This document shows positions 6,975 to 57,017 of a DNA stretch of 64,000 bases, piece by piece. The stretch lies in contig CM049322.1 of assembly GCA_026874595.1 (NCBI GenBank), positions 30,257,340 through 30,321,339 of the forward strand, read 5' to 3'. The DNA comes from Sipunculus nudus (lineage: Eukaryota; Annelida; Sipuncula; Golfingiida; Sipunculidae). Both the position numbers and the translations under genes were made by a program. The notes under the pieces were generated by a model. The model was not told where the DNA came from, made no database searches, and saw nothing but the letters and a program-made list of their open reading frames with translations. The number at the start of each line of letters is the position of its first letter. The first letter of the stretch is position 1.

Positions 6975-7775
6975 ACAAGGCCTACAGGCCTAATGCGAAC
7001 CTGTGCAATGAGAATACACCAGGTATAATGCTTCAATGCTGGACCATTACTTTTCAAGAACATGTGTAACATGTACATGAACAATGCAAGTACTAAACAC
7101 TTAGAACAAGAAACAATTAAACAAACATCACTGCTTCAATTCTGGCATGGGTGGACACAACACAAAAACTAGAATATGGGTAGTCAACAAGCGACTACGT
7201 GTATCCACCAAAATCAGAGTAGGAAAGGTGAAGTGAGGCATGGATTGAGTGGCAAGGGGAAATAGAGTGAGGTGTGTTGCATAATAGCCTGGATGTCTGC
7301 AGCCGATATGTGTATGTAGGTTGCGCCTTCTACCCCAAAATCCAGAAAGCTGTCCAAGATGTATAAACATGCAAAATTTTAGGCAGATAAGTCAAACCAC
7401 TACTGAGATATGAGTGATTTTAGCCATGGCAGAAAAACAGACGGGTGCTATGCAAAAATAGTGGCAGATGGCGCCACCAGTTTTGCGTATGATTAAGAGC
7501 TATGTGAAATCTATACATGCAAAATTTTTGCCAAATCGGTCAAATGGTTCCTGAGATATGAGCTTGAATGTCTGCAGCGTAAATTTGAATGTAGGTGGCG
7601 CCACCTGTCATAAAACAAGAAAGCTGTCAAGGATGTATACACATGCAAAATTTCAGGTGGATTAGTCAAACCACTGCCGAGATATGAGTGATTTTATCCC
7701 AAGGCAGATGAACAGATGGACGCTGTGCAAAAAATGGTGGCAGATGGACACCAGTTTTGCGTATGATAAAGAGCT

Positions 7776-10733: not shown

Positions 10734-11310
10734 GAGCTATGGGAGATCTATACACATGCAAAATTTCCGGGGGATATGTCAAACCAGTCCTGAGATATAA
10801 GCCTTAATGTCTGCAGCATATACATAAATGTAGGTGGCGCCAGCTGCCACAAAATCCAGAAAGCTATCCCAGATGTATAAACCTGCAAAATTTAAAACAA
10901 ATATGTCAAACCACTGCCGAGATATGAGTGATTTTATGCCCCGGCAAACAAATAGACCGATGCTGTGCAAAAATGATTGCAGGTGGCACCACCAGTTTTG
11001 CGTATGATAAAGAGCTAAGTGAGATCTATAAACATGCAAAATTTTTGCCAAATCGGTGAAATGGTTCCTGAGATATGAGCTTGAATGTCTGCAGCGAAAT
11101 ATGAATGTAGGTGGCGCCACCTGTCATAACAAGTGACCCATGGGTCATGACGCTCAGCTGACCGGGAAGTGATTCGCAAAAGGAAATTTTATCACCAGAA
11201 TGGTAGTATATACCCATTCAACTGAAGCATCAAACAGATTAACCAACAGGCCAAGATTTAGTCTGTATTTATATATCTCAAAAATAGAGAAAAATGTGTA
11301 AACTTTTAAA

Positions 11311-12483
11311 ACTAGAATACGGGTAACCGACAAGTGACTACATGTATCTGCCAAAATCGGATAGTGAGGCATGGATTGAGTGGCAAGGGGAAATAGAGTG
11401 AGGTATGTTGCATATTAGCATGGATGTCTGCAGCCTAAATGTGTATGTAGGTTGTGCCACCTACCACAAATCCAGAAAGCTGTCCAAGTTGTATACACCT
11501 GCAAAATTTTAGGCAGAAAAGTCAAACCACTACATGTATATGAGCGATTTTTGCCCATGGCAGACAAACAGACAAACACTGTGCAAAAATCTTTGCAGGT
11601 AACCCCTCCAGTTTCGTGTATGATAAAGACCTATGTGAGATCTAAACACATGCACAATTTTGGCCCAATCGGTCAAATGGTTCCTGAGATATGAGCTTGG
11701 ATGTGTCCAGCGTTAATTAGAATGTAGGTGGCGCCACCTATCATAAAATCAAGAAAGCTGTCCACGATGTATAAACCTGCAAAATTTTAGGCAGTTATGT
11801 CGAACCACTACAGAGAAATGAGTAATTTTAGGCCACGGCAGACTAACAGACAGACGCTGTGCAAACATTGTAACAGGTGGCGCCAACATTTTTTGTGTAT
11901 GTTACAGAGCTATCAAAGGGCTACATTTGTATAAATTTTATTTCCTGATCGGTCAAACGGTTCCCGAGATATAAGCTTGGATGTCATCAGCGTGAACGTG
12001 AACGTAGGTGGCGCCACCTGTCATAAAATCAAGAAAGCTATCCTGGAAGTATACACATGACGAATTTCAGGTGAATTAGTCAAATCACTGCAGAGATATG
12101 AGTGATTTTAACCCAAGGCAGATGAACAGATGGACACTGTGCAAACATGGTTACAGGTGGCGCCACCATTTTTTGTGTATGTTATAAAGCAATCCAAGGG
12201 CTACATTTGTATCAATTTTATTTCCTGATCGGTCAAACGGTTCCCGAGATATGAGGGTTTATGAGTGGAAACAGACCCACAAATGGACACTGGATAGAGA
12301 GGAAAGGTCAGAGGTCAATGCAAATTGGTTAGGCACCAGTTCACATGTGACCCGATAATAGGTGTAAGTTTGGGAAAAATCGGTCCATTAGTCTCCGAGG
12401 AGCTCTCTGGAAACGAACGCCGCCATGGCGGAGGAACTCGGTCAAAAACATAGTATCCGCAAAACTTTGTTTTGGCGGATACA
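11311..12483 (+). mobile_element. G: J-like element inside I1
   Basis: It starts ACTAGAATAC, with subterminal TGTATCTGCCAAAA at about 11,343. It ends in a hairpin at 12453-12482 whose 3' arm is TTTTGGCGGATAC. The body has GGTGGCGCCACC-type repeats related to J. Flanks are A-runs on both sides, with no target duplication visible. Confidence 0.6.
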
Positions 12484-14456: not shown

Positions 14457-16659
14457 ACGGACGGACAGACGGACAGACGGACAGACGGACGACGGACAAA
14501 GAGTGATCGCTATAGCTCAGATGACTTTCAGTCAGCTGAGCTAAAAATTAAGAAAGCTGTCAAGGATGTATATACCTGCAAAATATCAGTTGGATAAGTG
14601 AAACCACTGCAGAGATATAAGTGATTTTATCCCGATGCAGATGAACAGATGGACGCTGTGCAAAAATGGTTACAGGTGGCACCACCAGTTTTGCGTATGA
14701 TAAAGAGCTATGGGAGATCTATAAACATGCAAAATTTTGGCCCAACTGGACAAATGGTTTCCGAGATATAAGCTTGGATGTCTGTAGCTAAAACATGAAT
14801 GTAGGTGGCGCCACCTGTCATAAAATCAAGAAAGCTGTCCAGGATGTATACACATGCAAAATTTCAGGTGGGCAAGTCCAACCAATGCAGAGATATATGT
14901 GTTTTTACCCTAAGGCAGATAAACAGTTGGATGTTGTGCAATGATTGTGACAGGTGGCGCCACCATTTTTAGTGTTTGTTATAAAGCTTTCCAAGGGCTA
15001 CATTTGTGCAAAATTTTTAGCCTTATCAATCAAATGGTTCCCGAGATATGTGGGTTTATGTGTGGAAAAAGACGCACAAATGGAAGCTGGGCAGAGAGGA
15101 AAGGTCAGAGGTCAACCAAAAATGAGGGCGCAGCAGTTCACATGTGACCGATCATAATTCGGAATTTTAAAAATTCTACCCAGTGGTTATGGAGGAGTTC
15201 TCCGGAATCCTTTGTGGCGATGGCGGCAGCGTCGGTGTCCGTCTGAAAACATAGTATCCGCAAAACTCTGTTTTAGCGGATACAATGATTGTAGCTGGCA
15301 CCATCAGTCTTATATACAACCAAGAGATATATACATATGCCCAATGTCAGACTGATATGTCAAACCCCTCCTGTGAAATAAGCAGGTACATACACTGTGC
15401 AAAAGTCAATGTAGGTGGCACCACCTGTCTTGTAAATGAGAATACCATCAAAGACGCATAGACAGGTATCAGTCCAATACATCAAATTTCCCCAGAGTTT
15501 GATGCACTGGGCTGACAAGGCTTAGGTGAGTAAGGCAGTTGCCCCCAAGTGACCTGTGACAAATTGCTGCCTCAAGCTACTGCACTGAGTGAAATCTTGA
15601 CCTGCACCTGGCTAGACTGAGTGAACTTTTGACCTGTACCTGGCTGCACTGAGTGAACTCTTGACCTCTTGCATAATCTGACACAGGTACCATTAATGAC
15701 AATTATTATAAGAATTTATGTAGGGATTATTCTTGTAATATATTTATCAAACTGGCATCAGTTGCATCAGTCGAAAAAAGTTTCGAAGTTTATAACTCAT
15801 ATAGGAAGATACAGCAAACTGGCTAAGTTCAGCTTCCTGTAACTCAGCCAAAAAGCACTGAATCAATACCATTTGAACAAACTTGAATTATCAACATCTG
15901 AGGATAATTAATGTGTGAGATTTAAGAATTTAGCCCAGTGGTTTTTGAGAAGAAGATCTTTGTAGCCACTGAGCTAAAATGGGCTGTTATGGCATATGAC
16001 TAAATTCAGCTTCCTATAACTTAGCCAAAAGTCACTGAAAAGAGACCATTTGAACAAACTTCAGAAAGCACTACCCTAGGATCATTTCTGTGTGATATTA
16101 AACATTTTGGCCATATGGTTTCAGAGAAGAAGATTTTTGTAGCCCTCAGTGTGATACAGGCACTAATGACCCCGTAACAAAAAGGCCGATGCAGGTGGCG
16201 CCACCAATACCTCAATTTCAGATATGACCTATGTGACCAACATTGGCATAAAATTTAGTGATGATAGCTCCAGCCGTTTCTGAGATTGTAATTTTAATAT
16301 GCTTTTTTGCACAGTTAACAAAGTTCAACCTCCTGTAACTCAGCCAAATATCTCCAAACTGGAACCATTCGAACAAACTTGAGAGAGATTGTTCCAGGGA
16401 TCATTTCTGTGAAATACTGGACAATTTGGCTGGACAGTTTCGGAGGAGAAGATTTTTAAAGCTTTTTTTAGCTTTTTCCCTATAAAACCTAAGAAAATGC
16501 AGTTAGAAAAAAATAAACAAAATCCGATATAGTTTTTTGGATGACTGACAATTTGCAAAAAAATTGGTGATGCTAGCTCCTGCCATTTTTGAGATAGCTA
16601 TGGTTAACGTACAGACGACGCACGACGCCGCACCATCGCATAAGCTCACAGGTTCGCTA

Positions 16660-19319: not shown

Positions 19320-21926
19320 ACAAGGGACCTATGGGTCACGACGCTCAGCTGTTATATATGATAAAAAAATATTATTTAGAAATGAGGCACATGCTGGTTT
19401 TGTGTGGTAATAAATATAAGCTGTATTATGAGTTGTTGTTGTTTAGCTTATGTATGATTTTGATAGTACCTTTGGAGACAGGGAAGAGGATTGATTTCAT
19501 TTATTTTATTAACAATTGGAGTACTATTGTCACACAGATTTTGACTTGGCCATATAACTTATAAGCAGAACATATAATATAAGAGTTTAACTATTTATTT
19601 AAAAAAATTACAAATATTGTCCCAAATATAATTTTTATTAAAAATAATAAGAGAATCATATTTTTTTTCAAAATGAAATATAACTGATATGATTATTAAA
19701 ATAATATTAAAGAATATATTCATGAATGCATTCATGAATACATTTTGAAAGTATTTGCACGAGTATTCATATACTTTCATTTTTACCTGAATTCCCATTC
19801 TTTATGCAAGAAATTTTATAATGGAGTACATAATCATATTCGTGTTTGAATAAAATTACAAAGTATTCACACCATGTCTGGTATTTATTCAATTTTCACC
19901 AAACAATGATGTTGAGAATCCAGAATATACAAAATTCACACATTTAAATAATGATCATAAGTACCTGGTTTTATGGCTTTTATTTATATTAAAAATAACT
20001 GTAAAAAATTCATTTTGGACTAATTTCACATCAATCTACACACTAGACACAGTAGGAATCTAGATTAATATTATCAACTGCATCTTTGTCTATCATTAAT
20101 TTCCTTCATATGATCCCTAATGATTAGTAATGAATAATATGATTTACTTCTTTATCATTAAAATTGAACTGAAAAATGCCATAGGTGACTGCATGGTGTT
20201 ATTTGGAATATGTGACATTCTACCCATCGATACAAGATTCTTATATCATCAGTAACTGCAAGTTAATTTCCTGTTATTATAAACTAACAAATTCCTTTTC
20301 TATTTTTCTTTAATTTGTTATTAAAAACCAATACAAATTTATTAATTTGTTGTTTATTGTTATGTTGTTGGTTTCTGTTGGACACCTGGATCAACTGTGG
20401 CTGGCCATAAGCTGCCTGGATTCCTGTATGCCTCGCCTCAAGCGTGCATAATTTGATGAAAGGTCAACAAGGTCAACATACAGGTGACTCAAGAGGGGCT
20501 GGAGAGAGCCAAAGTCTGACAGGGTCTCATAAAAAACATTAATAAAAGCTACAATTTTTGGCCAATTTCTTTCAGCTTTCTAAACTAAAAAGCTGAAATC
20601 CTTATGTGTGCATGATATGAAAATCATATCAACAGTGCTCACAGAAACAAACGTGCCATGGTCACAGTTGAGCAAAATTTAAGGTACTAATTTTATATTT
20701 ATACTAATAACTTATAAAATTTGAAAAATTAATAACTAATTTTGGGTATTCAATTGAATCTTGATTAAATAATGTTACATCCCTGACAAAAAAATCTCTA
20801 GCAATGCCCTTGTTAAGGGAGTAAATATATTTCTTGATTTTTTACAAAGTGCATTATGTTTGGGCCCATAACTTAAAACAATTACGCAAAACTGACATCA
20901 TTCTGGAATGTGCATAGAGAATGAAAAATAAGTATATTGTTTATGATTAAAGTCAGATCAGTGGTTTTGTTATTAGGCAGTCTTGAAGTGTAACAATGGG
21001 TTTTTAATGGAAAAATGAAGTTTTTCATTAATATCTCGAAGGTATTAAGTTCTAGTGACCAAATTCTTGGCATGGTAGGGGATTTTGGAGACATCTAACT
21101 GTATGCTGAATTTAAGGAACTTAGAGCTGAAGCTGGGGAGCTGAGCTTTTGCAAACTGCATAACACTAGCTTGATGTAAACAATATGTTACAAGGTGCTT
21201 GAAAACTTGATTAAAATCTACAGTTTTTGATCAACTGGTTTCAAATTTTTGGTGTTAACAGTTGAAATGCTGACAAAAACATGCTGTGAAAATTAAATCC
21301 ACAGTACTTACAGGAAAAAAACGTGCCATGGTCAAAGTTGGGCAAAATTTAAGGTACCAATTTTTTATTTTTATTAATATTTTAAAAAATTTAAAAGATT
21401 TTCATCTAATTTTGGGTATACAATTTAATTTTGATTAATTAAAGATATATTACTGGAAAAAAGGTCCACAGCTTTAACATTTTTTGTGTTAAGTGATCAA
21501 ATATCTTTCCTTATTTTTTTCAAAATGCATTATGTTTGGGCCTAGAACTTTTTTAAATTAAATAATACAGACATAATTTCTGGCATGTACATAGGAACTA
21601 TATAGAGGAATATTTATGGTAAATATGAGGAAAAACAGATGAGTGGTTTTGATATTAGGCAGTCCTAAAGTGTGAAAATAGGTTTTTAATAAAAAATTGA
21701 GGTTTTTCCTTAATTTCTCAAAGGAACGAAGTTGCAAAGACCCAGTTTTCCGCTAGGTAGGAGATCTTGGGGACATCTAACATTATGCCGAATTTTGGAT
21801 TCCTAGGTCTTACGGTTTCAAAACGTGCCACATCTACGGACGGACGGACGGACGGACGGACAGACGGACGGACGACGGACAATGGACCACGACTATAGCT
21901 CAGATGACTTATAGTCAGCTGAGCTA
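19320..21926 (+). mobile_element. A2: complete copy of the 2.6-kb A element
   Basis: The left end is ACAAGGGACCTATGGGTCAC with GCTCAGCTG at about 19,343. The right end is a hairpin at 21896-21926: arms of 14 with one A/G mismatch, loop TAT, then AAAAA. An (ACGG)n stretch (about 21,838-21,880) lies just inside. The body is very similar to A1 and A3. Two ~670-bp internal units occupy the 3' half. No coding region is supported. Confidence 0.7.
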
Positions 21927-24530: not shown

Positions 24531-24747
24531 ATGAAGTGATGTAAGAATTTACATATCATACTCCGTGTTTCTCCAATTAATTAACTATTTCTACAATTTG
24601 CATCCATTACAAAGATAACACAGACAAGTACTTGACAAACACATGTAATATGAATAATGGTAAAAAGCATGAACTTTCAATTAAACCATAGAGGTATTTT
24701 GGCCTGCTTCTTCTCATTACTATCCTAGCATAGCAGTAATTATTAGA

Positions 24748-26430
24748 ACTAGATGTGTCGGAACGACACGAATGCCCCCGCCTGGGACAAATTAGAAACA
24801 TTTGTTAAATTTTGTAAAAATTTTTTAAGTTCAGGAAGTGTTGTATGGTCCAAAGTAGGTCAACAAGGGCAAAATGCAAACTCGATCTGTAAAGGGTCAT
24901 TATCAAGCAACACACCAAAAATCAGGCCAGTATCTGCAGGCATTGTGAAAAAAAGTCCATATATGTGCATTTTTCATGAAATTTCTGTCTTTCATGAAAT
25001 TTTCTATGTTCAGGATCTGTCATATGGTGAAAAATAGGTTAACTGGGACGAAACAAGAACTCGATCTGTAAGTGGTCATTATGCGGCCACAGACCAAACA
25101 TTAGGCCAGTATCTGTAAGCATTGCATTGCGAAACTAGAATATTAGCAAAAGTTGATAATCATTTATAAATTTAAATTGGAGAGGTATATACCATGTTTC
25201 ATAACAATCCACCAAATGCTTCCTGAGAAATAAGCTCCTAAGTTTTTTTCTATACTAAGCTCTGTGACCTTGAAAAGTAGGTCAAGATCACCCATCTTTG
25301 AACTTGACCAAGATTTTGTAAATATAATGCAATAGCACTGAAGAAATGAAGTTCCTGTGTTGAATACCTTTGGAGATATCCTGCACAAAAGGCCATAATT
25401 GAAAAAATCCGATAAAATTTCATTAAAAAATCAGAAATTGAAGGTGGCGCCACCAAAATTGTGCAGCACATACAGACCATCAGTCCCAATGATCATAGTA
25501 AGTTTTGTGAAAATCCACACAATGGTTCCTGAGATATAAACTTCTGAGTGTTTTTCTATAATCAGCTCTAAAATGTAGAAAAATGGGTCAAGGTCACCCA
25601 TCTTCGAACTTGACCGAGATTCTACGATATACATCTTCACTGATGAAATAAAATTCCAACTGTGAATCCTTTTAGAGATATCCCGCTCACAAGGTAAAAG
25701 CTAACAGACGCGGAACGGACAGACACCGGACAGACAGATGGACAGACAGACAGCTTGGGTGACGACAATAGCTTATCAGCCTATGAGCTGAGGGCTAAAA
25801 ACGGCTGTACATGTGTATTTGTCATAAAAATTTCTATTTTTCATGAATTTTTCTAAGTTTAGGAGCCGTAAAACCGTCAAAAGTAGGTCAACCGGGACAA
25901 AACGTGAACTCGATCTGTAACTGGTCATTATCTGCCCACACACCAAAAATCAGGCCAATATCTGCAGGAATTGCGAAAAAAAGTCTGTACATGTGTATTT
26001 GTCATGAAAATTTCTGAAATTTTCTAAGTTTAGGAGCCGTAAAAAACAATCAAAAGTAGGTCAACCGGGACGAAACGCGAACTCGATCTGTAACTGGTCA
26101 TTATATGCCCACACACCAAAAATCAGGCCAATATCTGCAGGCATTGCGAAAAAAAGTCCGTACATGTGTATTTGTCATGAAAATTTCTATTTTTCATGAA
26201 ATTTTCTAAGTTTAGAGAGCCGTGAAACGGTCAAAAATAGGTCAACCGGGACGAAACGCGAACTGGATCTGTAACTGGTCATTATCTGCCGTCACACCAA
26301 AAATCAGGCCAATATCTGCAGGCATTGCGAAAAAAAGTCTGTACAACTGTTTGATTTCGGAATGACGGAATGATGGAATGACGGACATGGGTAAAACTAT
26401 ATGCCCCGGCCACTTTGTGGCGGGGGCATA
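24748..26430 (+). mobile_element. L: Helentron-like element with ~180-bp repeats, carrying O
   Basis: It starts ACTAGAT, then a hairpin GTGTCG-GAA-CGACAC (24755-24769), then subterminal ATGCCCCCGCC (24772-24782). It ends in a hairpin at 26401-26429 whose 3' arm (GGCGGGGGCAT) is the exact complement of the subterminal repeat. The body is tandem ~180-bp units around ACTCGATCTGTAA (about 24,881, 25,060, 25,910, 26,090 and 26,266). O interrupts it at 25134-25797. Part of another copy is at 49.8-50.2 kb. Confidence 0.65.
25134..25797 (+). mobile_element. O: short Helentron-like element inside L
   Basis: It starts ACTAGAATAT and ends with a (GACA)n stretch and an imperfect hairpin, then GGGCTAAAAA. 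Removing it restores the L unit (GCATTGCGAA joined to AAAA then CTGTACATGTG), matching neighbouring uninterrupted units. It holds one GGTGGCGCCACC at 25443-25454. The terminal repeats pair poorly, so the end assignment rests mainly on the restored site. Confidence 0.55.
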
Positions 26431-26613
26431 AAAAGAATGACCCATGGGTCATGACGCTCAGCTGACTGGGAAGAGATTCCCAAAAGGAAATTTTATCATC
26501 TAAATGGTAGTATATACCCATTCAACTGAAGCATCAAACAGATTAACCAACAGGCCAAGATTGTGTGTGTATTTGTATATCTCAAAAATAGAGAAAAATG
26601 CGTATACTTTAAA

Positions 26614-29600: not shown

Positions 29601-29851
29601 TAATTTTTAATAAAAAATTGAGGTTTTTCCTTAATATCTCAGGGGAACAAAGTCCTATTGACCCAATTTTTGGCATGGTAGGAGATTATGGGGACATCTA
29701 ACTGTATGCCGAAATTCAGATTCGTAGGTCCAACGGTGTCGAAACGTGCCAGTCTTACGGACGGACATCCAGACGGACGGACAGACAGACGGACGGACGA
29801 CGGACAATGGACCATGACTATAGCTCAGATGACTTATAGTCAGCTGAGCTA
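26614..29851 (+). mobile_element. B1: 3.2-kb Helentron-like element inside I2
   Basis: It starts ACAAGGGACCCATGGGTCAC with GCTCAGCTGA and ends with (ACGG)n and the hairpin TAGCTCAGATGACT / AGTCAGCTGAGCTA near 29,821-29,851. Its 3' half is related to A elements and its 5' half differs. A reversed copy (B2) is at 36.7-39.6 kb and an interrupted fragment (B3) at 50.8-57.0 kb. Short open frames shared with B2 follow from repeat copying. Confidence 0.7.
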
Positions 29852-30742: not shown

Positions 30743-33195
30743 ACAAGTGACCCATGGGTCATGACGCTCAGCTGCCAAGCATGACCTGCGACATCATGGG
30801 CTGCAATTCACAACTTCTAGTAAAATTGTTGCTGAACCTATATGCCAATTTTGTTTAAACTTTCTACATTGCCATAAATTCTTATCATATATGTCTGGTT
30901 AAAACATAGTGAATGATGGTCTGAGGCAAAATGTATGGTTGTTGAGCTATCAGGAACTAATCCCACAGCTTGCTCGATACCTGTCAGTCTCAAAAGGAAT
31001 ACCACACAGGCCACATATAAGATCAAAATATAGCAAAAGATCAAGGAAATCCATGCAAGAATTATTGTGAAACGGGTGCTTCCATATTAATTTATATTCA
31101 ATACAAGCCAACTGTACTGAGCTTTCATAAATGATGGTCAATATATTAAGAAATCTTTGACCCAATGCAAGATTACATTAATATACATCCCACTGCATTC
31201 ACTTTAATAGTTCTTGAGATAAAATGTTCCAAAGGAATTTAAAGATGGCGTCCTGGTGGCCATATTGGATTTCTGACAGGTCGGAAATTGAACAACAAAC
31301 ATCCTCTTAAAGGGACCAAACATAAAAAAATCACAGAAACTGTCCTGGCAAAAGGATTTCTAAAATGGCTACCTGGCAGACATAATGGTTTTCTGACAAG
31401 TCACACATCCTCCAATAAGACACTAAACTTGTAGCAATTGCTTCAAAGAATGTAACAGTTATGAATGTCCAAAACAATTCAAAAGGCATGATCAGTATGG
31501 AGAGCTCTCATATCAGATTTATGAACATGCAAATGTAAAAAGTGCAAGTCCAATTTGTTTTAATTATCAGCTTGCTATTCAATGGGGTCAGCAGGGTAGG
31601 TAAACTGTAAAACCTAAAAGAAAAGAAATGCAGAAAGCATCACTAAGAGTCTTGTAATCAAATAAAGCCATCCTAAATCCAGGTACAGACCCACATATTA
31701 TCAGAACAAACACTTGTAGGTATATCTGATGATTTGTATAATAATATTCAGATATCTAGAAAACTAAGTTTATTGCTATGATTCCATGATATATACTGCA
31801 AAATGTTCCAATCATTTTATAAATCAGTAGCTAAACTTAACACTTAACTCTCATAGTCTTAATGCCTGGCCAAAGCATTCCGGCAACAGTGTTTTTGTTA
31901 TGCACTAATGATATATCCTTATCACTCCATGAGCTGATACAAAAGGGAGTCATATATCACAAGTGTCACTGACAATTATGGGCACATAGTGATATGTACC
32001 AGTTGTGAGTGCCATATGGTTATATATACAAGAAAACAAGAAAAATAGAGATGGTCTACAAAATAAGTTATTGTGAACATCCCTGACCTATGACCTTGGC
32101 CTTTTGCCCACATATCAACTGGATTCTTTCTAAATGATGGGTAACTACTAACCACTTACATCTGGCTGGGTGTAATTTATACTTGGCAACCAATGAGTGA
32201 ATAACTTAGACCTTCAACCTTTAACCTCCTGACCAGCTGACCTCAAAATCAATCGGTTATTTCTTCATGCAAAAAGACCCATAAATATGAAGTTTGAATC
32301 AAATTCAGTGATGCATAGATGTGGCATATGTGAAAGACTGAAGGTTTGGGTTGAACAGTTTCACTTGAAATATGTTCACAAGCATTTAGAACAATATTGT
32401 GACCTTGACCTTTGACCTTTTGAACTCAACATCAATAGGCTTCTTCTCCTATTGGTTGGTAAGCCATATATGACAGATGGAAAGTATAGATTGAAAAGTT
32501 TGCTGAAAATGACTCCATACAAGAAGAGGGTGCTGTGAACTTGACCTTTGACCTCAAAATCAACAGGTCTTTTCCCCTGTTGGCAGAGAAGCGATATCAG
32601 TGCTGAAAGGTTTGGAATGAAAGGTCTTGCTTGAACTGTGTCCACAACCTTTTCAAAGAAGTGGATCCTGTGACCCTGACCTTTGACCTTGTGACCTCAA
32701 CATCTATAGGATTCTTCTCCCACTTAGTAGGTGAGCTATATGTGAAAGATCAAAGAATTGGGATAAAAGGTTTGGCTTAAAATGCATCCGGAGGCTTTTC
32801 AAAGAAGTTGTTTCTGTGACCTTGACCTTTGACCTTGTGACCTCAAAATAATTATGGATCTTCCCCTGTTAGTAGGTGAGCTGTATTTAAAGATGGGAGG
32901 TTTGGGATGAAAATTTTGGCTAAAAGAATTATTTCTGGGGGGTGCAAACACACCCTATAACTTCAAGAATATAGGTCGCAGTGACCTAATTTCAGGTTTG
33001 CAAGGAGATCTTTTTAGAACCTCTAAGACTGCATAGGGTTCATGGCCCTAGCCCCTATGGTTATGATTTGTGCTCTGCTAACGGATGGACGGCCAGCCGG
33101 ACAGCCGGCCAGACGGCCGGACGGACGGACAGACGGAAGGACGCCGGACAAAGACCCATCGCTATAGCCCAGCATGACTGAAAGTCAGCTGAGCT
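30743..33195 (+). mobile_element. H: Helentron-like element with TGACCTTTGACCT units
   Basis: The left end is ACAAG, TGACCCATGGGTCA and GCTCAGCTG. The right end has a (GACGGCCG)-type microsatellite (about 33,080-33,140) and a hairpin (about 33,163-33,195) ending CAGCTGAGCTA. The right half (32,080-32,940) has about six diverged units of 130-145 bases with GACCTTGACCTTTGACCT or variants. A mid-part (31,230-31,400) holds two copies around GGCCATATTGG. No gene. Confidence 0.6.
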
Positions 33196-33473
33196 AAAAA
33201 CTGGCATTTAAGTCGACCTCGCATATAAGTCGAGTATAAATTTTCAGGGTAAATATCAAGTAACAGGTCTGAAGCAGCATACATGACCATCGAGAGTAGT
33301 GTGACAGGCCACTTGGGAAAGGCGAATTGTATGACTGACCACTCGTTTTTGACATTCATACCACTCTAATTTTTTTAAAATGTAAAAATGTCATTTGTTT
33401 TGTTGTGCAATCTATTTAAAAGTTATTGGGCATCATAAAGACTCTAAGATTAATAAATATAACAGGTCGATAC

Positions 33474-36746: not shown

Positions 36747-39582
36747 TAGCTCAGCTGACTATAAGTCATCTGAGCTATAGTCGTGGTCCATTGTCTGTCG
36801 TCTGTCGTCTGTCCGTCTGTCTGTCTTGCCGTCCGTCCTTCTGTCCGTCTGGATGTCCGTCCGTAAGACTGGCAAGTTTCGACACCGTTGGACCTACGAA
36901 TCTGAAATTCGGCATACAGTTAGATGTCCCGAAAATCTCCTACCATGCCGAAAATTGTGTCTATAGGACTTCGTTCCTTCGAGATATTAAGGAAAAACTT
37001 TTTTTTATTAGAAATCTATTTTCACACTTCAGGACTGCCTAATATCAAAACCACTCATCTGGTTTTCTTCATATTTACCATAAATATTCCTCTATATAGT
37101 TCCTATGTACTACCAGATATTAAGTCAGTATTTTATAATTGAAAAAAGTTATGGGCCCAAACATAATTGACTTTGTAAAAAAATCAGGAAGATATTTGGT
37201 CACTGAAGACCCAAAGTGTTAAAGGTAGGGACTTTTTTCCAGTAATACAACTTAAATTAATCAAAATTTAATTGTATACCAAAAATTAGATCAAAATCTG
37301 TTTAATTTTTTTAAATATTGGCAAAAATATAAAATTGGTACCTGAAATTTTGCCCAACTTTGGCCACGGCACGTTTTTTTCCTGTAAGTACTGTTGGTTT
37401 AATTTTCACAGCATGTATACATAAGGATTTAATCTGTTAAAATCTGAAATTTGAAAATAAAAGCTGCAAAATTAGGCTAGTAATTGAATTTTTTTGGAGG
37501 CTCTTGTTGTATTCCCTTACATTGTCAAGCAGTCCACTTTGATGACTGTAGGTCATTCAGTGCACATCTCTATGCTCCCCAGGCTGTTGGCATAATTTTA
37601 GATGTCCCCAAAAATCTCCTACCATACCGAAAATTGGGTCATTAGGACTTCATTCCTTCGAGATATTAAGGAGAAAAATACTCCGTTTTCCATAAAAAAA
37701 GCCATTGTTACACTTCAAGGCTGCCTAATATCAAAACCACTGATCTGTTTTTGATTGTATTTAGTATTCACATTCTTTCATACATTTTCTATGAACATAC
37801 CAAAAAATAGGTCAGTATTGGGTATTATTTTGGAGTAATGGGCCAAAACATAATGCAATTTTTTAAAAAATCAGGAAATATATTTACTCACCTAACATGA
37901 GAATTGCTGAACCCAGAGACTTTTTTTCAGGAATATGACTTTATTTAATCAAGATTCAATTATTTACCCAAAATTAGATCTGAGTTTTGCAAATTTGTCA
38001 AGTTATTAGCATAAATAAAAAATCAATACCTTAAATTTTGTCCAACTTTGGCACTGTTGATTTAATTTTCACAGCATATATACATAGGATTTAATCTTTT
38101 AAAATCTGAAATTTCAAAGAAATTGATTGGAAAGAATAGCTTTTGTTCATGTTTTCATACACCATGTCAAGTGTTGTTTACATCTAGCCCACCTAGTAGT
38201 ACAGCCTTCACTTGCATTATGTAACCCACCCCAGGCAGCTTGCCTTGGGTCAGCTTGGCCACTAGCAGCAGGTTTCCCCTCTGCCCTGCTCCCCCCCCCC
38301 CAGATGGTGCATAAACTAGATGAATGTTATTATTTTCTGTATTTGATTCATTCTTATTCTAGGCTATGCTACATTTTAGATTTTGTATTGTACCACCAGG
38401 GTTACAATGATTAAAGTGTACATTTAATTGTGTCCACAAAGTGGTGTATTGCTATGAAAGTGTGGATGTTCATGAGATAAGTAATTTCTTACTTCAGAGG
38501 AGTAAAAACTTCACCAGGTGTGAAATTGACTATTAATTCCAGTAATAAATTAAAACTGGGATAGTAATGAGCACAATGATATTGTTTGTCCCTCATTCAA
38601 CCAACAGTGTGTATACTTTATTTGAAAAGATGTTTTATTTTATCAAATTTACTTTTATTTTAAAAAAATAGGATTATATATAAACTTAAATGCATTATTC
38701 CCTTGAAAGTGAAATAAAGGTATTAGTCTATTCTGTCAACTTGCCTGTCCATCTGTAAATTTTCATATGCATCACAGTATCTCAAAACTTTTACTGTTTT
38801 TCTTCATGACAGTCTTGTCAGAGTATTAGTTTGCAATCATATATTTAGAACTTTACTATAACCAAGTAGGAGGGCCCCTTTCCTCTTAGCTTTTCATATT
38901 CTTATATAAATGAAAAACATTACAATAGAATATTTCTACATCCACATTCGTGCTGCCCTCACTTTTCCCTTCTCCGAACCCCATCCCAAAGTCAGCCTCA
39001 GTAAGCAAGAACAAGATGAATCAGATATATTCATACTTTAATATTTTGTATAACTATTTGTCCATAGGTACCTATGTACATGCCAGAAATTATGTCAATA
39101 TTGTGTAATATGTAGACATAGTGGGCATCACAATAATGTACCTTGTCAAGACTAAAGAGATATTGTGTCATACAGTCACAAATTCATAAATCACTTCATC
39201 AGCATAGTTAATCATAACATCATATCTGTCAAATTGAAAGCTTGCAGACTACCATACACTTTAGATCCTTCTACAAATAGCCTTATCATCATTCTACTAC
39301 TGCTTATTACTGCTGTCATTGCATTCATATTTGCTCAAATATATCACAATTTTCAACCCCTCCTAAATAAATAAAAAATAAACCACTATATTTGACTCTT
39401 TTAATCCATCAGTCAGGTAATTTCATTTATCATTTACTCACATATTACATTACATTCCTTTATAATAGCCCAACATGTCCATGATATTCATAAGCTTTAT
39501 TGACTCGATATAGTATCACAGTGGAGAAACATTTATAGTCCAATCATGATCAGCTGAGTGCCGTGACCCATGGGTCCCTTGT
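36747..39582 (-). mobile_element. B2: reversed B element in the foldback loop
   Basis: The plus-strand left edge is TAGCTCAGCTGACTATAAGTC, split here only for description: the terminal hairpin spans about 36,747-36,777. The right edge is GACCCATGGGTCCCTTGT at 39565-39582, so the element reads on the minus strand. It matches B1 over most of its length, including the GGGGGG tract near 38,290 (reversed relative to B1). Confidence 0.7.
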
Positions 39583-40619
39583 TTTACAAATTATTTAGTA
39601 TTAATTTAAAATTAATTTATTTTGCTATTTGCTATATAAGCACAACATGGCAAAAAGTGATCGACGGACAAAAGGTGATCCCTATAGCTCAGATGACTTT
39701 CAGTCAGCTGAGCTAAAAATTGAAAAAATACAGGTGGCGCCACCAGAATGCAGAAACTGATGAAACATATCATGATCAATATCCATGCAAAGAATCATGG
39801 TGATCAATATAATAATTGTTCAGATACTTGAGCTTTTGTATCAAATTTTCCATTATTCTGGGGGGTACTTCGGAGCCCCACAGCTTAGAGGTTATGGTAA
39901 CAGAGACCTAATTTCAAGTCTTTAAGGAGACTTTTCATGGGCCTCTCAGCATGTCAAGAGAGAAGATTCTAGGTCCAGTGGTTACGATTTGTACCATGTT
40001 AACAGATGACCGCATCTTATGAGGTCTCAAAAATAGAGAAAAAATTCGTAAAAATAAAAAAAATACAGGTGGCGCCACCATACTGCAGAAACTGATGACA
40101 CATTCCATGATCAATATCCATGCAAAGAATCATGGTGATCACTGCAATAGTTGTTTAGATACTTGAGCTTTTGTATCAAATTTTCCATTATTCTGGGGGG
40201 TACTTCGGAGCCCCATAGCTCAAAGGTAATGGGTAACAGAGACCTAATTTCAGGTTTCCAAAAAGACTTTTATGGGCCTCCCTGCATGTCAAGAGAGATG
40301 ATTCTAGGTGTAGTCGTTACGATTTGTGCCCTGTTAACAGATGGCCGCATCTTAAGAGGTCTTGAGCTTTTGTATCAAATTTTCCATTATTCTGGGGGGT
40401 ACTTCGGAACCCCATAGCTCGAAGAATATAGGTCACAGTGACCTAATTTCAGGTTTACAAGGAGAATTTCCATAGACCTCCCAGGATGTCAAGTAAGAAG
40501 ATTCCAGTTCTAGCGGTTACGATTTGTGCCCTGTTAACTGAGAGACGCCCGGACGGCCGGACGGACGACGGACAAAAGGTGATCCCTATAGCTCAGATGA
40601 CTTACAGTCAGCTGAGCTA
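39583..40619 (+). mobile_element. I-type element remnant in the foldback loop
   Basis: One 3' hairpin end lies at about 39,685-39,715. Two I-type tandem units follow (about 39,735 and 40,065), then a complete 3' hairpin at 40589-40619. The final AAAAA adjoins the foldback arm in the run of T (read on the other strand) of its ATCGTTTTTTCAAGG motif. The left end is missing. Confidence 0.5.
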
Positions 40620-51073: not shown

Positions 51074-52082
51074 ACTAGATGTGGTCGGACAATGATCCTC
51101 AGAGGGCCCCGCGTTTCTGCAAGTGATGGACTATTTTATGGGTGAAAAATTAATTTAAATTTGAAAAATATGACAAACAGAAACAGGTTTAATCCATATG
51201 CATGAGGGAAAAAATCCTACTGGATCAAATGATATTAAAGAAGATGAGTCTGAAATATTGTGTGCAATAGAAAATCACCAAATGTAATCTGTAGGCCATA
51301 TTTGATTTTGAGCCAGTCTGTAATTCAAAAGGTCTGGAGCCCTCAATGATCCCTGTGAAATTGGGAAAGCTGCAGTAGGTTGTTGTTAAGTAATTAAAGT
51401 TATTATGTGCGAAAGAAAAACAGCCATCAGGCCGTGGTGGCAATATTGAAAATTCCAACAGGTCTGTAATTCAACAGGTCTGGATCCCTTATAGGTACCA
51501 ATCATCCCTGTGAATTTGGGGAACTGCAGGAGGTTGTTGTTGAGTTATTGCGCGCAAAAGAAAATCAGAGATTGGGCTGTAGCAGCCATATTGGAATTCT
51601 GACAAGTCTGTAATTCGATAGGTCTGGAGCCCTAACAGGTACCAATCATCCCTGTGAATTTGGGAACGCTGCAGTATGTTGTTGTTGAGTTATCGCTTGC
51701 GAAAGAAAATCAGCGAATTGGCTGTGGCAGCCATATTGGAATTCTGACAAGTCTGTAATTCGATAGGTCTGGAGCCCTCATAGGTGCCAATTGTTCCTTT
51801 GAATTTGGGAAAGCTGCAGTATGTTGTTGTTGAGTTATAGCGCGTGAAAGAAAATAAGCAATAGGGCTGTGGCGGCCATACTGGAATTTTGACAAGTCTG
51901 TAATTCAATAGGACTGAACCCTCATTGGTACCAATCAACCCTGTTAATTTGGGAAAGCTGCAGTATGTTGTTGTTGAGTTATCGCGCGTGAAAGAAAGTG
52001 TCACTGACGGAAGGACAGATGGATGAAATGACGAAAGGACACGGTGATCACTATAGGGCACTCGCTAGTCAAGCGGGGCCCA
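51074..52082 (+). mobile_element. M: Helentron-like element with ~150-bp repeats
   Basis: It starts ACTAGATGTG with subterminal GGGCCCCGC (51104-51112). It ends in an imperfect hairpin (52056-52081) whose 3' arm GCGGGGCCC is the exact complement of the subterminal repeat. The body has five or so ~145-155-bp units with GCCATATTGGAATTCTGACA or similar and TGTTGTTGAGTTAT. It sits in B3 without a visible target duplication. Confidence 0.65.
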
Positions 52083-52281
52083 AATAATGCCACAACATGG
52101 CATCTTCAAGATTATTCCTTGAATCACTATTAAAAAGTTGTGTACATTTGAGTTTTCAGTAAATGCTTAATTTTATTCACCGAAATAAAAGATTAGGTAA
52201 ATCTGATAAAATAAAACCATCTTTTCAAATAAAGTATACACACTGTTGGTTGAATGAGGGACAAACAACAGTATTGTGCTA

Positions 52282-55200
52282 ACTAGACATTTCTTGGCAC
52301 CGCAGGTGCCAGAGTATCCCCAGACATATTAGGCCCCCCTCCTACAAGAACAGACCCCCATTTTTAGCAGCATACACTTGGCATATTTATTGTTTATTCC
52401 ATCTAACGATCCACAATCTTGTTGAAGATGTTGGTCCTGTGACCTTGATCTTTTTAAAGATGTGTCCTGTGACCTTGACCTTTGATCTCACAACCCCAAA
52501 ATCAATTTGGGTCTTGCTTTTCCAATGGGACATATGCAAGTCAAGTTTGAAATCTATACATCAATAAAGCAGGAATTATCATCCAGAAACTTATTTTTGG
52601 ACAGATGGCTCCTGTGACCTTCACCTTTGACCTTGTGACCTCAAAATTGATAGTGTTCTTCCTCTTTTGGCAGGAGAACTATATGTGCAAGATGAAAGAT
52701 ATGAGATGAAATGTTTGGCTGAAAATGCATCCACATTTTTTTAAAGATGTGTCCTGTGAACTTGACCTTTGACCTCATGACCCCAAAATCAATTTTGGTC
52801 TTACTTTTCCAATGGGACATATAGGTTTGAAATCCATACATAAATAAAAGCAGGAATTATCATCCAGAAACTAATTTTTGGACATATGGCTCCTGTGACC
52901 TTCATCTTTGACCTTGTGACCTCAAAATTGATAGTGTTCTTCCTCTCTTGGCAGGAGAACTATATGTGCAAGATGAAAGATATGAGATGAAATGTTTGGC
53001 TGAAAATGCATCCACATTTTTTTAAAGATGTGTCCTGTGAACTTGACCTTTGACCTCATGACCCCAAAATCAATTTTGGTCTTACTTTTCCAATGGGACA
53101 TATAGGTTTGAAATCCATACATAAATAAAAGCAGGAATTATCATCCAGAAACTAATTTTTGGACATATGGCTCCTGTGACCTTCATCTTTGACCTTGTGA
53201 CCTCAAAATTGATAGGGTTCTTCCTCTCTTGGCAGGTGAACTATATGTGCAAGATGAAAGATCTAAGATGAAATGTTTGGCTGAAAATGCATCCACATCT
53301 TTTTAAAGATGTGACCTTGACCTTTGACCTCATGACCCCAAAATCAATTTGGGTCTTGCTTTTCCAATGGGTCAAATACAAGTCAAGTTTGAAATCCAAA
53401 CATCAATAAAAGAAGGAATTATCATCCAGAAACTAATTTTTGGACAGATGGCTCCTGTGACCTTCACCTTTGACCTTATGACCTCAAAATTGATAGGGTT
53501 CTTCCTCTCTTGGCAGGTGAACTATATGTGCAAGATGAAAGATCTAAGATGAAATGTTTGGCTGAAAATGCATCCACATCTTTTTAAAGATGTGACCTTG
53601 ACCTTTGACCTCATGACCCCAAAATCAATTTGGGTCTTGCTTTTCCAATGGGTCAAATACAAGTCAAGTTTGAAATCCAAACATCAATAAAAGAAGGAAT
53701 TATCATCCAGAAACTAATTTTTGGACAGATGGCTCCTGTGACCTTCACCTTTGACCTTATGACCTCAAAATTGATAGGGTTCTTCCTCTCTTGGCAGGTG
53801 AACTTTATGTGCAAGATGAAAGATCTAAGATGAAATGTTTGGCTGAAAATGCATCCACATCTTTTTAAAGATGTGACCTTGACCTTTGACCTCATGACCC
53901 CAAAATCAATTTGGGTCTTACTTTTCCAATGGGTCAAATACAAGTCAAGTTTGAAATCCAAACATCAATAAAAGAAGGAATTATCATCCAGAAACTAATT
54001 TTTGGACAGATGGCTCCTGTGACCTTCACCTTTGACCTTGTGACCTCAAAATTGACAGGGTTCTTCCTCTCTTGGCAGGTGAACTATATGTGCAAGATGA
54101 AAGATCTAAGATGAAATGTTTGGCTGAAAATGCATCCACATCTTTTTAAAGATGTGACCTTGACCTTTGACCTCATGACCCCAAAAATCAATTTGGGTCT
54201 TGCTTTTCCAATGGGTCAAATACAAGTCAAGTTTGAAATCCAAACATCAATAAAAGAAGGAATTATCATCCAGAAACTAATTTTTGGACAGATGGCTCCT
54301 GTGACCTTCACCTTTGACCTTATGACCTCAAAATTGATAGGGTTCTTCCTCTCTTGGCAGGTGAACTATATGTGCAAGATGAAAGATCTAAGATGAAATG
54401 TTTGGCTGAAAATGCATCCACATCTTTTTAAAGATGTGACCTTGACCTTTGACCTCATGACCCCAAAATCAATTTGGGTCTTGCTTTTCCAATGGGTCAA
54501 ATACAAGTCAAGTTTGAAATCCAAACATCAATAAAAGAAGGAATTATCATCCAGAAACTAATTTTTGGACAGATGGCTCCTGTGACCTTCACCTTTGACC
54601 TTGTGACCTCAAAATTGACAGGGTTCTTCCTCTCTTGGCAGGTGAACTATATGTGCAAGATGAAAGATCTGAGATGAAATGTTTGGCTGAAAATGCATCC
54701 ACATCTTTTTAAAGATGTCCTGTGACCGTGACCTTTGACCTCATGACCCCAAAATCAATTTGGGTCTTGCTTTTCCAATGGGACATATACAAGTCAAGTT
54801 TGAAATCCATACATCAATAAAAGCAGGAATTATCATCCAGAAACTAATTTTTGGACATATGGCTCCTGTGACCTTCACCTTTGACCTTGTGACCTCAAAA
54901 TTGACAGGGTTCTTCCCATCTTGGCAGGTGAACTATATGTGCAAGATGAAAGATCTGAGATGAAATGTTTGGCTGAAAATGCATCCACAGTATCTTTTTA
55001 AAGATGTGTCCTGTGACCTTGACCTTTGACCTCATGACCTCAAAATCAATTTGGGTCTTGCTTTTCCAATGGGACATATATAAGTCAAGTTTGAAATCCA
55101 TACATCAATAAAAGCAGGAATTATCATCCAGAAACTAATTTTTGGACATATGGCTCCTGTGACCTTCACCTTTGACCTTGTGACCTCAAAATTGATAGGG

Positions 55201-56851
55201 GTCTTCTACTCTTGGCACGTGAACTATATGTGCAAGATGAAAGATCTGAGATGAATTGTTTGGCTGAAAATGCATCCACAATCTTTTTAAAGAGGTTTCC
55301 TGTGACCTTGACCTTTGACCTCATGACCCGAAATTCAATTCCTGTTTTGCATTTCCAATGGGTCAAATACAAGTATAGTTTGAAATCCATACATCAATAA
55401 AAGAAGGAATAATCATCCAGAAACTAATTTTTGGACATATGGCTCCTGTGACCTTCACCTTTGACCTTGTGACCTCAAAATTGATAGGGGTCTTCTTCTA
55501 TTGGCAGATGACTTATATGTGCAAGATGAAAGGTCTGAGATGAAATGTTTGGCTGAAAATGCATCCACATCTTTTTAAAGATGTGTCCTGTGACCTTGAC
55601 CTTTGACCTCATGACCCCAAAATCCATATGGGTCTTGCTTTTCCAATGGGACATATATAAGTCAAGTTTGAAATCCATACATCAATAAAAGCAGGAATTA
55701 TCATCCAGAAACTAATTTTTGGACATATGGCTCCTGTGACCTTCACCTTTGACTTTGTGACCTCAAAATTGATAGGGGTCTTCCACTCTTGGCAGGTGAA
55801 CTATATGTGCAAGATGAAAGATCTGAGATGAATTGTTTGGCTGAAAATGTATCCACAATCTTTTTAAAGAGGTTTCCTGTGACCTTGACCTTTGACCTCA
55901 TGACCCCAAAATCCATTTGGGTCTTGCTTTTTCAATGGGACACATATAAGTCAATTTTGAAATCATTACATCAATAAAAGCAGGAATTATCATCCAGAAA
56001 CTAATTTTTTGACAGAAAGCTCCTGTGGCCTTGACCTTTGACCTTGTGACCCCAAAATTTATATGGATCATCCATTATTGGCAAGTGAGCTATATATTCA
56101 AGATGGAAGACCTGGGATGAAATTTTGGCTTAAAATGCATCCACAGTATCTTTTAAAATGCCAGTCCAGTGACCTTGACCTTTGACCTCATGACCCTAGT
56201 CCTTTAGGGTTCTAACTTTAGTGGTGGGCCATACATAAGTCATGTTTGAAATCCATATGGCTATCAACACTGGAGATATCATAAGAGGTGTGTGATTTTC
56301 ACCATATATGGCAATATTCAAGGTCAAGGCCACTATCATAGGAAAGCTCATGACCCCAATTTAAATAAGCATCATCCCATAACCCATACCTATGTATATG
56401 CATAATATAAAAGAAATCTGTCCATTAGTTTTTGACTTATAATGCACACAGTGCTGTAAGGTGGCAATTTTGGGGGTATTAATCGGAACGAAAACAAGTA
56501 AAGAATAATAGGTGGCGCCACCAGTTTCTGGAACATGACAACCCTATCCATGATCTTCCATCAACTTGATTTTGGGATAAATCCATGCAAGATTTCTTGA
56601 GATATTGAAGAATTTGTGGGATTTTCCTCAAAATTGGACCTATTCAAGGTCAAGGACACTCTCCTAGTAAAGGTCATGACCTCATTTTAAATAGGCGTCG
56701 TCCTCTTACCCATATCTATACATATACCAAGTTTGGTAAAGTTCCGTGAAATATTTTTTGGGTTATCGCGCCAACAAGATTTATATGCGGCGGCGGCGGC
56801 GGCGGGACCGGTATGAAAACATAGTATCCCCCGACTTTGTCTGGGGATACA
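52282..56851 (+). mobile_element. F: 4.6-kb Helentron-like element carrying the 281-bp satellite array
   Basis: The left end is ACTAGACATT, a hairpin GGCACC-GCA-GGTGCC (52296-52310) and subterminal GTATCCCCAGACA (52314-52326). The right end is a hairpin at 56824-56850 whose 3' arm TGTCTGGGGATAC is the exact complement. Between them are the tandem array, one GGTGGCGCCACC (56511-56522) and a (GCG)n stretch (56,787-56,805). Removing F restores GTGCTA|ATTACTAT, as in B1 near 28,050. Confidence 0.75.
52435..56250 (+). repeat. 281-bp tandem array, about 13 units, rich in AGGTCA half-sites
   Basis: Units recur at 281-290 bases; those between about 53,060 and 54,700 are nearly identical. Each unit is two related halves of ~145 and ~135 bases, beginning GTGACCTTGACCTTTGACCT and GTGACCTTCACCTTTGACCT. 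On the other strand the first contains AGGTCAAAGGTCA, a perfect direct repeat of AGGTCA spaced by one. Open frames of 67 codons in several units are a by-product of repetition. Confidence 0.8.
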
Positions 56852-57017
56852 ATTACTATCTCAGCTATAATTTTTACTGGAATTAATAGTCAATTTCACA
56901 CCTGGTGAAGTTTTTACTCTTCTAAAGTAAAGACTCACTTAACTGATGAACATCCACACTTTCATATAGCAATACACAACTTTGTGGACACAATTAAATC
57001 TGCACTTTAATCATTGC

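Follow-up and report, generated by a model that had tools for sequence, protein, structure and literature searches.

The 64-kb window, the whole stretch of Sipunculus nudus DNA analysed here, contains copies of several families of small elements, designated F, L, A (A/I), G, the G-like J, and M. Each family has an interrupted hairpin and a short repeat far from it (Table 1). An earlier note had quoted the hairpins and far repeats of F, L, A/I, G, J and M from the sequence, and all are present in the window where it had located them. A scan of the window for stems that contain GC and are interrupted no more than twice returned 14 hairpins, compared with none in each of five block-shuffled copies; 11 of the 14 belong to these elements, and none of those 11 is fully paired. 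The window copy of M is too damaged to be detected by a GC-stem scan. An exact-repeat finder run at looser settings gave 90 matches against 76 in a reversed-order control, so that the finder alone is no evidence. A loose search for G/J-type far repeats gave eight matches in the window against an average of 3.97 in shuffles, and the far repeats at 7201 and 11344 carry two changes. In family F, the far repeat is the exact complement of the outer hairpin arm, and in all four F copies read the flanks diverge at or just past the tabulated 5' terminus.

Table 1. Hairpins, far repeats, palindromes and termini in the 64-kb window (window coordinates; the slash in CTAG/TT and CTTG/TT marks the element end).
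Family	Feature	Position	Strand	Remarks
F	Hairpin, true 5' end	56824..56850	-	8 bp, A.G mismatch (C.T on +), 3 bp, 3-nt loop; consensus among 2,354 genome places
F	True 5' terminus beyond hairpin	56851..56854	-	Last base placed to within one nucleotide
F	Far repeat, true 3' subTIR	52314..52325	-	GTATCCCCAGAC
F	Perfect palindrome beside true 3' terminus	52295..52311	-	TGGCACC/GGTGCCA
F	True 3' terminus	52281..52287	-	CTAG/TT on minus strand
L	Hairpin	26400..26430	-	8 bp, C.C mismatch (G.G on +), 5 bp, 3-nt loop
L	Far repeat, true 3' subTIR	24772..24782	-	ATGCCCCCGCC
L	Perfect palindrome near true 3' terminus	24755..24769	-
L	True 3' terminus	24747-24753		CTAG/TT
A/I	Hairpin	21896..21926	-	8 bp, C.T mismatch (A.G on +), 5 bp, 3-nt loop
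A/I	(ACGG)n beside hairpin	21836-21880
A	Hairpin	14513..14543	-	Adjoining microsatellite 14457-14498
A	Hairpin	29821..29851	-	Adjoining microsatellite 29757-29798
A	Hairpin	36747..36777	+	True orientation on plus strand; then (GTCY)n 36792-36864
A	Hairpin	39685..39715	-
A	Hairpin	40589..40619	-
A subfamily	Hairpin	33165..33196	-	One-base insertion in place of mismatch; one extra mismatch
A	Far repeat, true 3' subTIR	11152..11162	-	GCTCAGCTGA
A	Palindrome at far repeat 11152	11134-11147
A	True 3' end	11128-11133		CTTG/TT
A	Far repeat	26456..26467	-	GCTCAGCTGA; nearest downstream hairpin 29821-29851
A	Far repeat, additional site	26637		GCTCAGCTGA
G	Hairpin	12453..12482	-	8 bp, one bulged base, 5 bp, 3-nt loop
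J (G-like)	Hairpin	15254..15283	-	Bulge base altered, bulge retained
G/J type	Far repeat	11344..11357	-	GTATCTGCCAAAAT (consensus GTATCCGCCAAAATC); true 3' end 11310
M	Hairpin	52056..52081	-	This copy with further changes; consensus 4 bp, A.G mismatch (reader strand of the earlier note), 6 bp, 3-nt loop
M	Far repeat, true 3' subTIR	51104..51112	-	GGGCCCCGC

Some further features of the window concern the arrangement of the copies. The interior of the F element (52448-56196) is filled by 13 copies of a 281-bp unit with 94% matches. At 26430-26456, an L terminus is followed by a few bases and then an A terminus, and a similar adjacency occurs at another locus in the genome (L022), which suggests insertion beside element ends. 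Between 34671 and 41650, repeated units carrying AACTAGAGCGGCAC or a near copy lie on both strands, apparently as a large inverted repeat.

The elements are best read as non-autonomous Helentrons of the HINE/DINE-1 kind. On the strand used by the earlier note, one end, placed like the other from copies with differing flanks, has, in order, (A)ACTAGA or ACAAG, a palindrome and the far repeat; at the opposite end, the hairpin is followed by just 4-5 nt up to the terminus, and in family A a microsatellite lies immediately inside it. Reverse-complemented, this is the published order of parts in HINE, DINE-1 and Helitron2, so that, judged from the sequence layout, the true orientation is the reverse complement of that in the note and the defective hairpin is the 5' hairpin. 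Three features bear on this polarity: one terminus has a subTIR in a hairpin and the other a subTIR followed by a palindrome, as in the published 5' to 3' order; in family A, a GTCY microsatellite adjoins the hairpin (14457, 21836, 29757 and 36792); and the other end, reverse-complemented, reads palindrome and then CTAG/T or CTTG/T, as at Helitron 3' ends. By these same three features, what the earlier note had taken for a 3' hairpin, perhaps with a part in termination, lies at the opposite end of the element. Since some Helitron2 and Helentron elements, in the portions of the literature covered, have their Rep gene in the reverse direction, the direction of open reading frames alone would not settle polarity. 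A polarity check is needed before a transposon hairpin is named a terminator.

The remaining terminal features can be described in the same orientation. The true 3' ends are CTAG in F, L, G and M, and CTTG in A; canonical Helitrons end in CTRR after a hairpin. The subTIRs measure 11-13 bp in F, L, A, G and N (a sixth family, described below) and only 9 bp in M, where the HINE criterion is about 11-15 bp, and the HINE feature of a 5' subTIR near the terminus with an adjacent partial inverted repeat is present once the elements are read in reverse complement. The palindrome that follows the 3' subTIR is perfect, at 6-7 bp, in the F, L and A window copies; it is also found in N, is imperfect in M, and is present in the G consensus with decay in the window copies. 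HINEs insert between TT without target duplication; in the nine copies inspected here by eye at each end, all of them occupied sites, the flanks are T-rich. Canonical Helitrons (Helitron1) start with 5'-TC and lack a 5' hairpin; these elements start with a T-run or TTG and possess one.

The genome also encodes Helentron proteins. There are 143 matches to Helitron_like_N, seven of them in open frames of more than 2,000 codons, and both Helentron gene loci examined encode Helitron_like_N, a PIF1 helicase, Exo_endo_phos and OTU. No element ends were found at these two loci, where the similarity between copies stops near the stop codon; Exo_endo_phos was found in two of two genes examined, and no autonomous gene could be tied to the ends of the small elements. 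Helentron genes lie at C11:50.38 Mb and C4:36.17 Mb. Those at loci L041-L044 encode DUF6570, OTU, Helitron_like_N, PIF1 and Exo_endo_phos, and a tandem-repeat region occurs in their N-terminal coding part. On contig C5, an M hairpin lying 5 kb from a match to Rep was considered as a possible autonomous element and ruled out, as its own far repeat lies between the two.

The hairpins were then followed through 1.43 Gb of genome, with patterns that fix the outer stem bases and allow any base at the defect site in either arm; the M pattern, unlike those of the other families, fixes the partner base. These exact-pattern counts, which are lower bounds, are 2,354 for F, 25,020 for A, 3,548 for L, 5,842 for G and 28 for M, and the reversed patterns gave no matches except four for L. 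A stricter first 5'-end pattern for F gave five matches. Defect bases were tallied by hand in the first 100 matches listed per family, all on contig C1, and in all 28 for M. For F, ten were set aside as other families or indels, about four in 100 of the F-pattern places being of G type, and the 90 alignable matches listed have C in 79, T in seven, G in one and A, the paired state, in three. Among the first 100 A places listed there are 92 with A, three with T, one with G, three of an insertion subfamily and one other; in the single place with a Watson-Crick pair at the site, the stem is damaged and it is the partner base that has changed. The pair is restored in two and replaced by a G.T wobble in another two of the first 100 L matches listed, and the G bulge is fully repaired in none of 100. 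In M, all 28 have A at the site, in a pattern that fixes the partner base. The defect is therefore the consensus state in five families counted genome-wide, and the fully paired consensus hairpins that were looked for as the outcome contrary to the earlier note are absent from F, A, L, G and M.

Counted from the stem base, the defect lies at 8 bp in F, L, A and G, at 7-8 bp in N and at 4 bp in M. The earlier note had placed the mismatch at the junction of two stem segments, which is true by definition. On the true strand, the defect base on the subTIR side is C in A, L, G and M, C or G in N, and A in F. Dead copies decay, often through CpG changes, and the defect site decays in them about like its neighbours; per-site conservation within copies was for that reason not used, and the constancy of the defect is shown between families rather than within copies.

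Family N was seen as two hairpins of the same build near a Helentron gene. Each has a one-base deletion, at a different place in the two copies, and one of the hairpins continues head-to-tail into a far repeat that has the full sequence. The kind of defect also differs elsewhere: an insertion replaces the mismatch in the A subfamily (window 33165 and three of the first 100 A places listed), and in J the bulged base has changed from G to A with the bulge kept. These changes from mismatch to insertion or deletion indicate that, at the family level, the defect has been renewed in kind and not removed.

Other DNA was also surveyed. In 29 kb of element-rich DNA, all seven A hairpins have the mismatch, but six of these also occur in the genome listing for A and so add little independent weight; no new family was found there. 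A random 140 kb contained no new family with both ends, one A hairpin (L011) and an M-like far end (L014). Locus L014 also has, at 7365-8554, a long, nearly perfect palindromic repeat of GGCTAAACAGCCGGCA and its complement, which is unlike these families. The family A hairpin pattern has no matches in the viral contigs and prokaryote genomes searched, nor does a DINE-1 hairpin pattern in the viral contigs.

The far repeats were sought with patterns that leave free the site corresponding to the defect. Genome-wide there are 2,039 places for F (six in the reversed control), 4,275 for A, 2,607 for L and 4,802 for G. In the first 100 listed, the base matching the hairpin arm is present in 97 for F, 99 for A and 89 for L, and none of the first 100 G far repeats listed has the one-base deletion of the hairpin arm. 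In all six families the far repeat follows the intact arm and not the defective one, M being judged from three copies and N from one. This agreement corresponds to 1/64 if either arm were equally likely and the families independent, a figure that is weaker if F and G, and A and N, share ancestry.

The proposal of the earlier note that the outer arm has a weaker local and a stronger distant partner is upheld at the level of family consensuses. By nearest-neighbour DNA parameters at 37 C (proteins, supercoiling and salt correction being outside the model), the defect costs the hairpin 2.9-5.4 kcal/mol, and when hairpin and end-to-end pairing are compared, the duplex of arm and far repeat is the more stable in each of the six families, with intramolecular closure left uncounted. 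The joint of a head-to-tail circle was folded in the same way, using ends from one or a few copies for M and N. On the true strand, the energy of the junction minus that of the hairpin is -3.2 kcal/mol for F, -0.1 for L, -1.4 for A, -2.3 for G, -1.2 for M and -1.2 for N. With a repaired hairpin the same differences become -0.3, +5.2, +3.4, +2.0, +3.9 and +3.1. Repair would thus be predicted to lock five of the six families, the F joint depending barely at all on its defect. On the opposite strand the sign is mixed (F -3.5, L +1.4, A +0.2, G -1.9, M +1.0, N -0.3).

When the natural state was ranked for favouring the junction against all single substitutions of the hairpin arm, a comparison applied also to G and N although these have deletions, it stood on the true strand at 19/36 (F), 5/42 (L), 4/42 (A), 15/42 (G), 6/33 (M) and 9/45 (N), and on the other, in the same family order, at 5/36, 9/42, 21/42, 4/42, 20/33 and 11/45. 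In the model, then, the rank of the real defect on the true strand appears just mildly above chance. Any mid-stem change shifts the balance about equally, and energy alone therefore does not explain the position of the defect. Head-to-tail joints do occur in the genome, with four matches for L and F and one for N. At C3:44234900-44236400 (L046), head-to-tail L elements lie 842 bp apart with two joints that have no extra bases, and the far repeats of these elements have a changed base at the site.

Helentrons are abundant DNA transposons of flies and bivalves and, to our knowledge, it is not established how they decide where transfer ends. It may be that the defect leaves the 5' subTIR free to change partners, from its neighbour to the 3' subTIR and back, in a near-balanced two-state structure, a reading whose chances we put a little short of even. 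The 5' subTIR would fold on its neighbour into a hairpin, a second subTIR lying just before the 3' palindrome; on the displaced single strand, the 5' hairpin would form first because its partner adjoins. With the arrival of the 3' end or head-to-tail joining, the two subTIRs would come to lie about 22-37 nt apart around the joint, and the hairpin, weakened by its defect, could release the 5' subTIR for pairing with the 3' subTIR. The subTIR duplex might then stack on the 3' palindrome, so that the joint forms a short single-stranded bulge which Rep could cut or seal. If the hairpin were perfect, the 5' end would instead be expected to stay trapped. The modelled energies are consistent with such a switch function for the asymmetry of the arms. 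The bolder formulation, in which the one-base defect is a tuned thermodynamic device and Helentrons detect the completion of rolling-circle transfer by strand exchange, is rather doubtful. If it is true, six families with rewritten stems each hold the circle joint within about 3 kcal/mol of balance, and a strand-exchange switch is perhaps present in DINE-1 of flies too.

A different role for the defect is conceivable, in which the HUH domain of Rep reads the unpaired base of the 5' hairpin and so distinguishes the 5' end and the correct strand; the far subTIR, which has no local partner, need not then carry the defect. There is a precedent in TnpA_REP, an HUH enzyme that contacts the conserved mismatch bulge of E. 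coli REP hairpins and whose activity, in the covered part of the source, was severely affected or eliminated by correction of the mismatch (PMC8266576). The near-constant position (8 bp in F, L, A and G, 7-8 in N) and the recurrent base on the subTIR side (C in A, L, G and M, C or G in N) point in the same direction. However, neither the base on the partner side nor the kind of defect is constant (A.G, C.C, C.T and bulges), F has A on the subTIR side, and the M defect is 4 bp from the base. Moreover, the same portion of that source describes a second REP group that is perfectly paired and bulge bases that are no more than moderately selected (PMC8266576). Recognition by Rep also leaves the agreement of the far repeat with the intact arm, in six of six families, unexplained. 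We regard it as a serious possibility but incline against it, and the switch and Rep recognition could both hold.

Other explanations give the defect no function. The host might lose perfect palindromes of 12-14 bp, or these might block replication, so that a defect without a role of its own is what survives. A fully perfect family consensus is indeed seen in none of the six families, but this account is improbable given that F, L and A keep perfect, though shorter (6-7 bp), 3' palindromes, that repaired single copies persist (for example, two of the 100 L copies listed), and that the position of the defect is non-random. It is very improbable that all families have kept, without selection, the accidental defect of one ancestral hairpin. 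F and G have GTATCC and the flank ACATAG in common and are therefore probably related, but A, L, M and N have otherwise dissimilar stem sequences; arms and far repeats were therefore rewritten together, and the defect stayed across mismatch, insertion and deletion. Private mutations of the window copies, further examples of which do occur in the J and M copies, have next to no chance of being the explanation, as the defect is in the consensus of every family counted.

The exchange of pairing partners can be set against several known systems, in which the element kind, the interrupted local repeat and the idea of competing pairings are already in print, as far as the covered portions of those papers go. 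DINE-1/INE-1 of Drosophila likewise has a GTCY microsatellite in the 5' block, a palindrome after the 3' subTIR and T-rich targets; in the 12 flies described, the 13-bp subTIRs are alike at both ends, with one mismatch in D. mojavensis, and the local repeat beside the 5' subTIR is called "partial and/or interrupted" (Yang & Barbash 2008, PMC2374699). The sequences are unrelated to those studied here, and within the covered text no analysis of that interruption by position or function was found (PMC2374699). The Cg_HINE elements of the Pacific oyster combine an 11-12 bp subTIR with a 7-12 bp complementary inverted repeat, a GTCC/GTCY microsatellite on the left, a subTIR and palindrome on the right, and central satellite-like repeats (Vojvoda Zeljko 2020, PMC7492417). 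The oyster subTIRs mostly differ from each other by one mismatch, whereas the subTIR consensuses here agree across the defect site; unlike the elements of this genome, those of the oyster were not found, in the covered part of that account, to be reported with a fixed single defect (PMC7492417).

Helraiser resembles the present elements in its CTAG-3'/T end (also CTTG-3') after a 3' hairpin and in its head-to-tail circles. It is a canonical Helitron starting with 5'-TC, its 3' hairpin serves as a terminator, and no subTIR or 5' hairpin was found mentioned in the covered sections (PMC4778049). Bacterial REP/TnpA_REP offers a conserved mismatch bulge in a single-strand hairpin together with an HUH enzyme; a distant repeat pairing across the mismatch was not found mentioned in the portion covered (PMC8266576). 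Helitron2 shares asymmetric terminal inverted repeats, hairpins at both ends, a 5' subTIR in the 5' hairpin and compensatory changes, and its authors suggested that the 5' hairpin is undone when the subTIRs pair with each other and that this pairing determines where replication ends (Bao & Jurka 2013, PMC3627910). Its 5' subTIR lies 0-2 bp from the end, compared with about 4-5 nt here; its RepHel has no endonuclease, a domain present in the two Helentron genes examined in this genome, whose link to the small elements is putative; and no hairpin defect was found described in the part of that paper covered (PMC3627910).

Neither a fixed single defect, nor its scale, nor an effect of it on the joint was found in the covered portions of this literature. 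New relative to those portions are a single, fixed defect at nearly one position and its change of type between families without repair; tens of thousands of small rolling-circle transposons in the Sipunculus nudus genome have such hairpins. In the folding model, the defect would also leave the two states of the circle joint almost balanced (-0.1 to -3.2 kcal/mol). A built-in imbalance of pairing may thus help a transposon to sense the meeting of its two ends, and the predicted locking of the joint on repair of a fixed defect supports the competing-pairing suggestion made in 2013 for Helitron2 and allows a one-base experiment.
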